A DNA stretch of 64,000 nucleotides from Pantoea endophytica (GTDB taxonomy: Bacteria > Pseudomonadota > Gammaproteobacteria > Enterobacterales > Enterobacteriaceae). Below, piece by piece: positions 9,128-34,277 of the stretch (the first letter of the stretch is position 1; every line of letters begins with the position of its first letter). Location: positions 186,001 through 250,000 of the forward strand of contig NZ_PJRT01000002.1 in assembly GCF_002858935.1 (NCBI RefSeq), read 5' to 3'. The notes beneath the pieces were generated by a model. It was not told where the DNA came from and searched no databases. It saw nothing but the letters and a program-made list of their open reading frames with translations. The translations under genes were made by a program, and so were the position numbers.

Positions 9128-9139
9128 AGTTGTACAACT
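9128..9139. promoter_or_regulatory. TTGTACAA palindrome (distal site)
   Basis: Perfect 12-bp palindrome AGTTGTACAACT in the otherwise empty, AT-rich stretch between the marR promoter and the ymgB-type gene. The core TTGTACAA recurs 119 bases downstream. MlrA, a MerR-type activator, binds TTGTACA/TGTACAA half-sites at csgD, and its paralogue BluR controls E. coli ymgB. The link is inference. Confidence 0.45.
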
Positions 9140-9246
9140 CACCGAAAATTTGGCGGTTTGGGCTTATTCTTGTATAGCTTTTAGAAAACATTACAAATCA
9201 TAAGTAACTGTTAAATAAGGGCTAGCACAAATTGCTTAAAATCCAG

Positions 9247-9256
9247 CTTGTACAAG
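9247..9256. promoter_or_regulatory. TTGTACAA palindrome overlapping a -35 element
   Basis: Perfect palindrome CTTGTACAAG, itself inside a larger inverted repeat ATCCAGC / GCTGGAT (9241-9247 and 9261-9267). It covers the -35 box of the promoter at 9248-9275, a position suited to a MerR-type regulator or a repressor. Confidence 0.45.
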
Positions 9257-9275
9257 TTGTGCTGGATTGTATAAG
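9248..9275 (+). promoter_or_regulatory. Sigma70 promoter for the leader/sRNA upstream of the ymgB-type gene
   Basis: TTGTAC (9248-9253), a 16-base spacer and TATAAG (9270-9275). Transcription would start near 9282, at the beginning of the structured RNA described next. Confidence 0.5.
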
Positions 9276-9281
9276 TTTACG

Positions 9282-9374
9282 TCCCGTGAGCCAGGAGATG
9301 GCTCCGTAACGAATGATGCACTTTGCGTCGCCTCTGAAAGTGTTGTGGATTTCCACCTTCAGAGGTGTCTTTTT
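9282..9374 (+). ncRNA. Candidate small RNA or attenuated leader
   Basis: About 93 bases between a sigma70 promoter and a terminator-like hairpin. The first stem is GAGCC / GGCTC with loop AGGAGAT, a GGA-in-loop arrangement like CsrA/RsmA sites. A single-stranded stretch follows, then an 8-bp perfect stem CCTCTGAA / TTCAGAGG (9331-9338, 9358-9365) with an inner GTGG/CCAC stem, then TGTCTTTTT. It does not match RprA, McaS, ArcZ, CyaR, Spot 42, RyhB or OmrA as I remember them. It could be a free sRNA or the 5' leader of the gene at 9479. Confidence 0.45.
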
Positions 9375-9478
9375 GCGTTGGTTGATGAGTTGGGTGTTGC
9401 GCGCCTGTCCGCGTGCAAATTTTTTCATCATGGAGCTGAAGGCACATTGCCATCAGGCCGATCTTAAGGGCTTCACAT

Positions 9479-9736
9479 ATGCAAAACGCCGCACACAGTA
9501 GCGCTGCCATCGCTGACTATTTCAAACTGGCCGGTAACAGCGACAGCAGTGAAATGGAAGTTTTCGGGCAGATCATCGCCGAAATCCTGCAAGCCGGTAT
9601 GCCGGTTTCTAATAAAGCGATTATTGCTTCGCTGATTAACCGTCTTGAGATGGAAAGCGATGTGATTCAGCTGGATATTTATCGCCATCTGCTTGAATTG
9701 GTTGTGAATAAAACACCTGACGATCTCGCGGTCTAA
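9479..9736 (+). CDS. YmgB/AriR-family biofilm and acid-resistance regulator
   Basis: 85 residues. The core SSEMEVFGQIIAEILQAGMPVSNKAIIASLINRLEMESDVIQLDIYRHLLELVV matches the small all-helical YmgB (AriR/YcgZ/YmgA) fold that dimerises and acts as a connector in the Rcs/biofilm network rather than as a classical DNA binder. The start is ATG 9479, with AAGGG about 10 bases upstream. Only one family member is present here, whereas E. coli has ycgZ-ymgA-ymgB in a row. The gene is preceded by the promoter, TTGTACAA sites and structured RNA described above. Behind it is a GGATTCCA/TGGAATC inverted repeat without a T-tract. Confidence 0.8.
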   Translation: MQNAAHSSAAIADYFKLAGNSDSSEMEVFGQIIAEILQAGMPVSNKAIIASLINRLEMESDVIQLDIYRHLLELVVNKTPDDLAV

Positions 9737-11852: not shown

Positions 11853-11938
11853 TGGTGCCCGGGGCGGGACTTGAACCCGCACAGCCATAAGCCGAGGGAT
11901 TTTAAATCCCTTGTGTCTACCGATTTCACCACCCGGGC
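11853..11938 (-). tRNA. leuZ: tRNA-Leu (anticodon UAA)
   Basis: 86 bases with encoded CCA. Acceptor stem GCCCGGG/CCCGGGC, a long variable arm, T-loop GGTTCAAGTCCC and anticodon loop TTTAAAA reading UUA/UUG. Last gene of the glyW-cysT-leuZ operon, as in E. coli. Confidence 0.97.
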
Positions 11939-11949
11939 AGGGTATAAAT

Positions 11950-12023
11950 TGGAGGCGCGTCCCGGAGTCGAACCGAGGTAGACGGATTTGCAATCCGTTG
12001 CATGGCCACTCTGCCAACGCGCC
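11950..12023 (-). tRNA. cysT: tRNA-Cys (anticodon GCA)
   Basis: 74 bases with encoded CCA. Acceptor GGCGCGT/ACGCGCC, anticodon stem-loop ACGGATTGCAAATCCGT, T-loop GGTTCGACTCC. Middle gene of the three-tRNA operon. Confidence 0.97.
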
Positions 12024-12065
12024 TTTAATCTGATATGTAATTCGTTGAATACGAACCACTAAATT

Positions 12066-12141
<76 letters not shown>

Positions 12142-13028: not shown

Positions 13029-14861
13029 TTAGTGTTTCAGTGAGTAGTAGATTTTTTCCGCCAGCGCGGTGGAAATTCCCGGCACTTTGGCAATCTCTTC
13101 GACGCTGGCATTCATCAACGGTTGCAGGCCCCCCATATACTTGAGCAGCTGCTGGCGCCTTTTGGGCCCCACGCCTTCAATACTTTCCAACGCACTGGTG
13201 TTCTTCACTTTGGCGCGTTTTTTCCGGTGACCTGAAATCGCATGATTGTGAGAGTCATCACGAATATGCTGAATCACATGCAGCGCAGGCGAGTCCGGCG
13301 GTAAGGAAACGCCCTCACCTTCCGCTTCAAAGAACAGCGTTTCCAGCCCGGCTTTACGATCGCTACCCTTCGCCACGCCGAGTAAAATCGGACGATCTTT
13401 ATCCCAGGGTACATTCAACTCGGCGAAAACCTGTTTCGCCTGCGCTAACTGACCTTTACCGCCGTCGATGATGATCACGTCGGGGATTTTGTCCTCTTCC
13501 AGCGCTTTGCCGTAACGACGGCGCAGCACCTGATTCATCGCCGCGTAATCATCGCCCGGCGTGATGCCCTCAATGTTGTAGCGTCGGTAATCCGAACGCA
13601 GCGGACCATCACGGTTGAACACCACGCACGACGCAATGGTCTGCTCGCCCATGGTGTGGCTGATGTCGAAGCACTCCATGCGATGAATGGTGTCGAGCTC
13701 AAGGAACGTCGCCAGCGCCGCCAGACGCTGCTGAATGGTCGAATGCTGCGACAGCTTGGTAGTCAGTGCCGTTGCCGCATTGGTGCGCGCCAGTTTCAGG
13801 TAGCGTGCACGGTCACCACGCGGCTTACTTTGAATGTTCACTTTACGTCCCGCCAGCGCGCTCAGCGATTCCGCCAGCAGCTCACGTTCCGGTAGTGTAA
13901 AGTCCAGCAGAATTTCCGCCGGCAAAGTGCGCGCTTCACTGCCTTGCAGATAGAACTGCCCGACAAAGGTTTGTACCACTTCGGTCAGTTCGGTATCGGC
14001 AGGTACTTTCGGGAAGTAGCTGCGGCTGCCGAGCACTTTGCCCTGACGGATAAACAGCACGTGCAAGCAAGCCATGCCAGCATCAAAGGCCACGCCCATC
14101 ACATCCAGGTCTTCACCCTGATTGGAGACAAATTGCCGCTCGGTTACGCGTCTTACCGCTTGAATCTGGTCGCGTAAAATCCCGGCCTCTTCAAAACGCA
14201 GTTCCTCACTGGCATTTTCCATGCGCTTGACCAGCTGATTAATCACCTGATCATCTTTCCCCGCGAGGAACAAACGCACGTAATCGGTTTGCTGCGCATA
14301 CTCCTCTTCGCTAACCAAGCCGGAAACGCAGGGTCCAAGGCAGCGGCCAATTTGATACTGCAAACACGGGCGCGAGCGGTTGCGATACACGCTGTTTTCA
14401 CACTGGCGAATCGGGAATACCTTCTGCAGCAGCGCGAGGGTTTCACGTACCGCATAGCCGTTCGGAAACGGGCCAAAGTATTCGCCTTTGGCGTGCTTCG
14501 CGCCACGGTGCATCGCCAGACGCGGATGGCTATCGCCACTGAGGAAAATGTAAGGATAGGATTTGTCATCGCGCAGCAGCACGTTATAGCGCGGCTGGTA
14601 GAGCTTGATGTAGTTATGCTCCAGCAGCAGCGCTTCCGTTTCGGTGTGCGTCACGGTGACGTCGATGTTCTGAATGTTGCTGACCAGAACTTCAGTTTTG
14701 CGACTGCCCACCTGCGTACGGAAGTAGCTGGTCAGGCGCTTTTTGAGGTCTTTGGCTTTACCAACATAGATCACCGTGCCGGTCGCATCGTACATACGGT
14801 AGACGCCGGGTTGGCTGGTCACGGTGCTGAGAAAGGCTTTGGAATCGAAAACGTCACTCAC
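13029..14861 (-). CDS. uvrC: Excinuclease ABC subunit C
   Basis: 610 residues, same as E. coli. The N-terminal GIY-YIG nuclease ([20 protein letters not shown], residues about 19-45) makes the 3' incision. The UVR motif (around residues 205-240) binds UvrB. The RNase H-like C-terminal nuclease includes [10 protein letters not shown] and the 5' incision residues, and tandem HhH motifs end the protein ([26 protein letters not shown]). It acts in nucleotide excision repair. It overlaps the end of uvrY by 8 bases, so the two are cotranscribed, as known for E. coli. Confidence 0.97.
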
Positions 14862-15513
14862 TACTGATTAATGGCTCCGCATTGAACAAGCCATGTCGAA
14901 TGGCCAAATGCGTTAACTCGACGTCGCCACTGATATTCAACTTGCTGAACATGCGATAGCGGTAACTGTTAACGGTTTTAGGGCTGAGACTGAGTTGTTC
15001 GGAAATTTCCGTCACTTTCTGCCCGCGTGTGATCATCAGCATAATCTGCAATTCCCTTTCCGACAAACAGCTGAAGGGGGATTCGGCTTTTTGCGGTTCG
15101 ATCTGGCTGAGTGCCATTTGCTGGGCAATATCCGAAGCGATATAGCGTTGCCCTGAATGCACCGAGCGAATCGCACTCACCACTTCCTGCGGCGCGGCGC
15201 CTTTACTGAGATAACCCGCTGCGCCCGCCTGCATCACCTTCGCCGGCAGTGGATTTTCAGTATGAATGGTGAGCATGATGATGCGGATATCCGGGTTAAA
15301 GCGCACAATTTTGCGTGTCGCTTCCAGGCCGCCAATACCGGGCATGTTCATGTCCATCAGCACTACGTCAACCGGATTGCTGCGGCACCATTTCACGGCG
15401 TCTTCACCGCACGCCGCTTCACCCGCAATAACGAGGCCTTTCATATCTTCCAGAATGCGGCGAATACCGGCGCGTACCAGTTCATGGTCATCAACAAGAA
15501 GCAGGCTGATCAA
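14854..15513 (-). CDS. uvrY: Two-component response regulator UvrY (GacA type)
   Basis: 219 residues from TTG 15513, the same unusual start codon as in E. coli. The receiver domain has the acidic pocket DDH, phospho-acceptor D54 in LMDMNMPG and the switch Lys in YLSKGAAP. The LuxR-type HTH at the C terminus is [43 protein letters not shown]. Partner of the BarA kinase; phosphorylated UvrY switches on the csrB/csrC sRNAs that titrate CsrA. First gene of uvrY-uvrC-pgsA. Confidence 0.96.
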
Positions 15514-34065: not shown

Positions 34066-34153
34066 TGGCGGAGGAACAGAGATTCGAACTCTGGGATGGT
34101 TTCCCATCGACGGTTTTCAAGACCGTTGCCTTAAGCCACTCGGCCATCCCTCC
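34066..34153 (-). tRNA. serT: tRNA-Ser (anticodon UGA), downstream copy
   Basis: 88 bases with CCA. Acceptor GGAGGGA / TTCCTCC, anticodon loop CTTGAAA, long variable arm GATGGGAAACCATC. It reads UCN codons. Paired with a near-identical gene 36 bases upstream. Confidence 0.97.
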
Positions 34154-34189
34154 GGGGATTTTTTTGTTGCGTCACTCTGCAAGAGTGAA

Positions 34190-34277
34190 TGGCGGAGGAG
34201 GAGAGATTCGAACTCTCGGATGGTTTCCCATCGACGGTTTTCAAGACCGTTGCCTTAAGCCACTCGGCCACCCCTCC
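34190..34277 (-). tRNA. serT: tRNA-Ser (anticodon UGA), upstream copy
   Basis: 88 bases with CCA. Acceptor GGAGGGG / CTCCTCC and the same anticodon loop. It differs from its neighbour at four bases that form two compensated pairs (acceptor pair 7-66 and one T-stem pair). Confidence 0.97.

Follow-up and report, generated by a model that had tools for sequence, protein, structure and literature searches.

In Escherichia coli, BluR protects a footprint in the ycgZ promoter that holds repeated GTACA half-sites bound by the regulator (PMC3509220), and the temperature-dependent expression of ycgZ operates mainly through BluR (PMC5491885). The outputs of the BluR/Ymg pathway described in the consulted sections of these E. 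coli papers are proteins (PMC3509220, PMC5491885). Here, we describe an RNA element that lies ahead of a YmgB/AriR-family gene in Pantoea endophytica, within a stretch of 64,000 nucleotides that is referred to as the window. The element is a member of a multicopy structured RNA family that is absent from Rfam.

A survey of Pantoea ananatis reported 615 sRNAs (PMC6749038). Table 3 of that study contains no entry at the corresponding position, which was estimated roughly from how far the element lies from RprA in four related genomes. The complete list is given in the supplement, so earlier detection is possible. Among the matches listed in a literature search, the titles and the opening lines of the abstracts describe no sRNA at ymgB, a result that does not disprove prior publication, and a text search of PMC4070566 returned no occurrence of ymg.

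Layout of the element at the ymgB locus

The features of the locus and the places of its promoter box in the source genome are collected in Table 1. The family is built of a covarying hairpin (H1), a linker that reads GTAACGAA almost without exception, a second, small hairpin (H2), and an intrinsic terminator (H3) with a conserved GGATTTC apical loop. The locus thus has the sequence features of an intrinsically terminated sRNA, namely a promoter-like site, a stable fold, and a terminator stem followed by a T-run, and transcription would start near position 9282.

Table 1. Features of the window, numbered from its first nucleotide, and places of the promoter box in the source genome (contig:position)
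Feature	Position	Strand	Basis or remark
Upstream box pair TTGTACA (9130-9136) and TTGTATA (9170-9176)	9130-9176	+	sequence
GCACAAATTGC	9225-9235	+	by eye; visible variants in many ymgB-locus relatives
Promoter/operator box TTGTACA-N13-TGTATAA	9248-9274	+	includes -10 TATAAG (9270-9275)
TTGTAC and TATAAG, 16-nt spacer	9248-9253 and 9270-9275		sequence
RNA element, extent by covariance model R1	9277-9376	+	109.2 bits; copy belongs to the set from which R1 was built
Hairpin H1, GAGCCA/TGGCTC, loop GGAGA	9288-9304	+	two-sided change in 6/6 pairs
H1 segments GAGCC, AGGAGAT, GGCTC	9288-9292, 9293-9299, 9300-9304		sequence
Single-stranded linker GTAACGAAT, candidate seed	9306-9314	+	AACGAA in 79/88 distinct copies
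Hairpin H2, GATGC/GCGTC	9315-9329	+	paired cells 97.4% in alignment A2
Hairpin H3, intrinsic terminator stem, conserved apical loop TGGATTTC	9330-9366	+	paired cells 98.5% in A2
Terminator stem CCTCTGAA with TTCAGAGG, inner GTGG/CCAC between	9331-9338 and 9358-9365		sequence
Terminator T-run TCTTTTT	9368-9374	+	sequence
Second, post-terminator hairpin, loop CTGTCC, then TTTTTT	9396-9419	+	covariation, 30 rows
YmgB/AriR-family gene, 85 aa	9479-9736	+	PF10798, 102.3 bits
tRNA genes, three	11856-12141	-	
UvrY-type regulator gene	14854-15513		Response_reg and GerE
tRNA genes, pair	34069-34277	-	
Box place 1			window element
Box place 2			RNA copy on contig C24
Box place 3	C27:252724		just after the third RNA copy, ahead of a YmgB gene
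Box place 4	C11:17329		precedes a group of three ORFs in which PF10798 matches twice above cut-off
Box place 5	C27:676085		ahead of a YcgZ/YmgB-like ORF, 20.6 bits, just below the PF10798 cut-off of 22.3
Box place 6	C16:22142		a BluR/MlrA-type MerR gene follows after about 55 bp
Box place 7	C25:144547-144573 (L190)		near-match with no evident target; a cold-shock-type small ORF is about 500 bp away
BluR/MlrA-type MerR gene	C16:22226-22951 (L136 1495-2229)		palindromic TTGTACA box just upstream

An earlier sequence-only reading proposed a complete small-RNA unit and/or a terminated leader ahead of a YmgB gene, and the conservation of the stems described below supports it. Its TTGTAC-N16-TATAAG pair and its GAGCC/GGCTC stem enclosing AGGAGAT are present as described. 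The match of the pair to the sigma70 consensus is weak: TTGTAC agrees with TTGACA at 3/6 positions and TATAAG lacks the final T, which is why a promoter scan did not list the pair. The terminator was recognized with its 8-bp stem, inner stem, and TCTTTTT, but the stem is longer than that reading allowed; 13 bp without interruption are present in at least 25 of 31 homologues, and the window copy carries an A-C mismatch within this longer stem. The YmgB-type gene was placed about 100 bases on, and its ATG at 9479 lies 104 nt past the T-run.

By eye, GCACAAATTGC resembles GCACTAATTGC of the E. coli bluF-ycgZ intergenic region. The box pair further upstream has similar, more closely spaced counterparts in several relatives, also by eye, and may play a role in the promoter region.

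The fold is conserved and covaries

The window RNA gave a folding z of -3.54, and none of 200 dinucleotide shuffles was as stable; with one more base, z was -3.99 and 1/200 shuffles was as stable. Folds of single copies (n = 9) ranged from a z of -0.61, which is not significant and belongs to the phage-type copy at locus L103, to -5.52.

Alignment A2 contains 31 ymgB-locus homologues and was fitted to no model. Standard pairs make up 98.1% of the pair cells of the whole structure. Two-sided changes occur in all six pairs of H1, in one pair of H3, and in none of H2. The covariation score and the paired cells were reached by 0/500 shuffle controls and the count of two-sided pairs by 1/500; the number of further pair types was reached by 268/500 shuffles, so this last measure does not discriminate. 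Alignment A4 is wider and model-fitted, and therefore leans towards the model; in it, two-sided change is found in 23 of 24 pairs (H2, 5/5; H3, 12/13). Ten loci (L031, L033, L034, and L036-L042) were omitted from the alignments as duplicates; two of them, L038 and L041, belong to other genomes, and L038 was omitted by oversight. The sequence-only reading had made its case depend on stem conservation in relatives, and the stems are conserved and covary. Given this covariation, it is nearly certain that the element is a conserved RNA fold.

The second hairpin, downstream of the terminator, shows two-sided change in 9/9 pairs with 96.1% of cells paired in 30 aligned ymgB-locus copies (A6). Its CTGTCC loop is found in 30/30 rows and a T-run often stands behind it. 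This hairpin may be a tandem terminator or a structure in the leader of the ymgB mRNA. Should both hairpins stop transcription, expression of ymgB would require read-through or a different start.

The element belongs to a multicopy family

A DNA search of 60 genomes matched 35 of the 36 from the same genus and 0 of the 24 others, for a total of 35, often at two to three places per genome. An alignment was made of 52 distinct copies and, separately, of the 31 ymgB-locus copies, from which covariance model R1 was built. R1 scored 21 other Pantoea copies (loci L055-L074) at 61-87 bits. A second model, R2, built from 92 R1 matches, located the element in 59 of 61 genomes of the genus, with 148 copies in all and 0-4 per genome. 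The two genomes lacking an R2 match are one of 1.4 Mb and one that is 74% complete. The source genome has three copies, in the window and on contigs C24 and C27. Copies are also carried by four large Pantoea plasmids of 744-794 kb (NZ_CP040096.1, NZ_CP121109.1, NZ_CP117200.1, and NC_014838.1). The copy counts given below refer to 90 tabulated copies, or to 88 distinct copies, a subset of at least 148.

Across the bacterial family, R1 found the element in 30/295 genomes and 17/154 genera sampled; across a sample of the order, R2 found it in 4/247 genomes and 2/87 genera, all in the same family. Both searches used stricter filters, with which weak matches are lost. Fourteen weak R1 matches, scoring up to 22.7 bits at E values up to 1, were taken for the reverse complement of the terminator or for chance. 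R1 detected no element in 11 Pectobacterium/Samsonia ymgB loci (L044-L054), and blastn with two queries against a collection of 5,426 genomes gave no E. coli match.

No Rfam 15 family reached its gathering cut-off in the element. The lone match at E values up to 5 was a snoRNA model on the other strand with 18.1 bits against a cut-off of 60, and it was rejected as not credible. In the 31 relative loci, Rfam detected only FourU, elsewhere than in the element. A FourU RNA thermometer precedes an HSP20 gene (PF00011) at L095 1785-1851, and 200 bp separate this thermometer from a distant element copy.

A shared promoter box points to a BluR/MlrA-type regulator

TTGTACA-N13-TGTATAA is present at the exact spacing with at most two mismatches in 60/90 copies, 49 of them exact. 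When the spacing was left free over 15-23, the box was found at 63/90 copies compared to 25/1800 mononucleotide-shuffled upstream regions. It is unique in the window within two mismatches, where the mean expected by chance is 0.09. Thirty copies lack the box at the set spacing, including the C27 copy of the source genome, and the box also accompanies copies without an adjacent YmgB gene, for example the C24 copy. Within one mismatch, it occurs at seven places in the source genome (Table 1), whereas the reversed pattern occurs at none.

The MerR protein encoded on contig C16 has the MlrA domains PF22267 and PF22270. It shares 66% identity with E. coli BluR and 55% with MlrA, and BluR and MlrA share 49% with each other. 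Its gene lies beside a permease gene in an mlrA-yehW-like arrangement. A single regulator of this type that is closer to BluR and stands in the mlrA-yehW-like order could reflect the state before duplication, together with autoregulation. A GTACA/GTATA half-site pair overlaps the element promoter, and a BluR/MlrA-type regulator is encoded in the same genome. Because the box also stands ahead of YcgZ/YmgB-type genes and of the BluR/MlrA-type MerR gene, we infer an autoregulated BluR/MlrA-type regulon that would include the element promoter. The sequence-only reading had drawn attention to uvrY. A UvrY-type gene is in the window, but its presence there is the only link to the element that was found; what the upstream boxes indicate is a MerR regulator of the BluR/MlrA type.

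Related copies are found in phages

The distant copies L093 and L125 are near Rz genes, and L103 is flanked by an Rz gene and a gene for a terminase small subunit. In Salmonella phage vB_SosS_Oslo, which the L103 element matches at 81.5%, the element is on the strand opposite the lysis genes. A search pattern derived from the phage-type copies retrieved 27 viral contigs, several of them near-identical, and R2 matched 27/27 at 43-63 bits. Because the linker and H2 are part of the search pattern, independent support comes from H1 and H3 only. Of the nine contigs whose surroundings were examined, profile matches established lysis or terminase genes in six (L162, L164, L170, L171, L174, and L182). 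In L170 and L174, an IraP-like gene that scores 37.6 and 44.5 bits (cut-off, 23.2) is encoded on the same strand, 117 nt downstream of the element.

Inspection by eye found no TTGTACA box in the sequence upstream of 12 phage copies. Phage copies L158, L165, L177, and L179 share an inverted repeat of the TATGGGA...TCCCATA kind just upstream, which is perhaps the operator of another regulator. A viral pattern for the L096/L100 subtype retrieved 0 contigs. The seven IMG/VR contigs retrieved with a third viral pattern (L198-L204) were not counted as phage copies; their copies are of the host type, lie about 310-450 nt from a contig end, and are probably host flank within provirus predictions.

Gene neighbors and mode of action

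In 59/90 copies, a YmgB-type ORF identified with a custom profile starts at most 300 nt downstream on the same strand, and these include all 33 copies most like the window copy. Distances were calculated from the longest ORF, and a negative value denotes an over-long start rather than an overlap. The source genome has eight YmgB-family matches and three RNA copies. Behind a DUF6388 gene lies its C24 copy, whose end is 2 nt away from the stop codon of a convergent iraP (PF10796), with DinI beyond. At this place (L056 2430-2828), the RNA copy is thus set end-to-end with the gene of a sigmaS anti-adaptor.

The sequence-only reading left the choice between a free sRNA and a conditional terminator. 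The copies away from YmgB genes and the phage copies favor the sRNA, and the ymgB locus could do both. Our best explanation, which we hold with somewhat more confidence than doubt, is a self-terminating sRNA that acts in trans and whose terminator is read through at the ymgB locus to give YmgB mRNA. An RNA of about 95 nt would be made from a promoter governed by the BluR/MlrA-type MerR regulator, together with YmgB/YcgZ-type connector proteins, and would end at its own terminator. Its action in trans would depend on two conserved regions, the single-stranded linker and the terminator loop. Ahead of ymgB, the polymerase would sometimes pass both the terminator and the second terminator-like hairpin to produce YmgB mRNA, and through such occasional read-through one promoter would yield an RNA and a protein regulator.

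The main rival is attenuation in cis only. The element would be a conditional terminator of the downstream gene, the short RNA would be waste, and some signal or protein would permit the polymerase to read on into ymgB. The YmgB-type ORF just downstream of 59/90 copies fits this proposal, as do the second covarying hairpin with its invariant CTGTCC loop in the ymgB-locus set and the two phage copies located 117 nt ahead of an IraP-like gene. However, the linker and loop are the same in copies that lack such a gene, the YmgB ORF is upstream of the element in L124, L098, L113, and L114, and the C24 copy runs up against a convergent iraP. We consider a purely cis-acting element unlikely on these grounds.

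Conserved unpaired stretches and candidate targets

Across paralogues and genera, the letters of the linker and the terminator loop are constant and those of the stems vary. The loop motif GATTTC is found in 74/88 distinct copies, close to the frequency of AACGAA in the linker (Table 1). Conserved exposed stretches of this kind are the pattern that would be expected of a trans-acting RNA.

In a search for a long antisense target of the linker, the complement of 14 linker bases, with at most one mismatch, occurred at 27 places in five genomes compared to 5 for a reversed control. Seven of the 27 are the RNA copies themselves, and the 4 others that were inspected lie inside ORFs. GAAATCC, the complement of the terminator loop, is found in 14/59 regions downstream of the element versus 1.2 in mononucleotide shuffles. 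Pairing of the terminator loop with the downstream ymgB mRNA was rejected, as GAAATCC is absent from 45/59 regions and its occurrence elsewhere perhaps reflects codon use in related genes.

The terminator loop is also complementary to GGAAATCC in E. coli RprA. Among 15 element-carrying genomes, GGAAATCC is present in the RprA of four (L140-L143) and missing from that of the other 11, including all five of the window's genus; a role as an RprA sponge is accordingly rejected for this genus only. A more general possibility is a sponge or decoy for another small RNA, with the phage copies mimicking the host copy. The conserved exposed loop, the RprA complement in those four genomes, and the occurrence of phage copies on the opposite strand of the late-gene region are compatible with a decoy, and the 11 RprA genes lacking the complement speak against one. 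We regard this possibility as unlikely, and because a sponge is a special case of trans action, its probability overlaps with that of the best explanation.

The sequence-only reading placed a CsrA-type loop in H1, and this claim did not hold for the family. GGA lies wholly within the H1 loop in only 2/88 distinct copies, one of which is the window copy, and spans the stem end and the loop in seven more; it is therefore no general feature of the family. In the terminator loop, 79/88 distinct copies have a GGA, at a position where McaS carries one as well, and a CsrA-titrating RNA of the McaS type could act through that loop in place of H1. In some other copies the terminator loop has GGG, GAGA, or TTGA and keeps the TTTC that follows, so that a weak Csr reading survives for the terminator loop only. 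With the H1-loop GGA in 2/88 copies, or 9/88 when those spanning the stem end are included, CsrA titration is quite improbable. Repeated mobile DNA of the REP/MITE kind with no RNA function would account for several copies per genome and for those on the four Pantoea plasmids, but it is unlikely given the covariation, and the low copy number of 0-4, the promoter box at a fixed distance, the compensatory pair changes, and the recurrent gene contexts leave it hardly any probability.

Discussion

The trans-acting sRNA with read-through into ymgB, if correct, adds an RNA arm to the BluR/Ymg pathway. The novelty rests on the combination of features, and the cautious alternative is one more bacterial sRNA. 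The covariance models and the promoter box make the expression of the RNA, its regulator, and its targets directly testable.

The Pantoea copies ahead of biofilm-signaling genes, considered together with the phage copies, suggest that biofilm and stress responses may be under a shared layer of control. The position of some phage copies ahead of IraP-like genes suggests that a related RNA serves phages in influencing the stress state of the host. A broader and more tentative proposal, which we think possible but would not yet bet on, is that bacteria and phages share an RNA family that feeds into the connector-protein circuits of the sigmaS/biofilm switch. The host would make its copies together with YmgB proteins from BluR/MlrA-type promoters, and phage copies, some of them ahead of an IraP-like gene, would steer the stationary-phase state of the host.

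Among the closest described systems is the bluR-bluF-ycgZ-ymgABC region of E. coli, which likewise combines a MerR-type regulator and GTACA half-sites with small YcgZ/YmgA/YmgB proteins. The promoter layout of the E. coli bluF-ycgZ intergenic region, with TTGTATAGATT, GCACTAATTGC, and a GTACA pair, is similar by eye. The half-site spacing at the E. coli ycgZ site differs from that of the Pantoea box, the E. coli bluR-ymgC stretch has no match to R1, and the Pantoea regulator, unlike E. coli BluR, is placed in an mlrA-yehW-like gene order. CsrA-binding RNAs of the McaS/CsrB type resemble the element in having a GGA in a hairpin loop, but the element has no conserved GGA in its first loop.

RprA is an sRNA linked to Rcs and biofilm (PMC3465796). 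Its E. coli form also contains AACGAAT. It is a separate gene, matched in 15/15 genomes searched (14 over the cut-off), and the element itself has no match to RF00034. AgvB is a prophage-encoded sRNA of lambdoid phages. The phage copies resemble such prophage sRNAs in being sRNA-sized elements of the late region near lysis or terminase genes, and differ from them in that hosts carry the relatives of the element as a family of genes that has a regulon box of its own.
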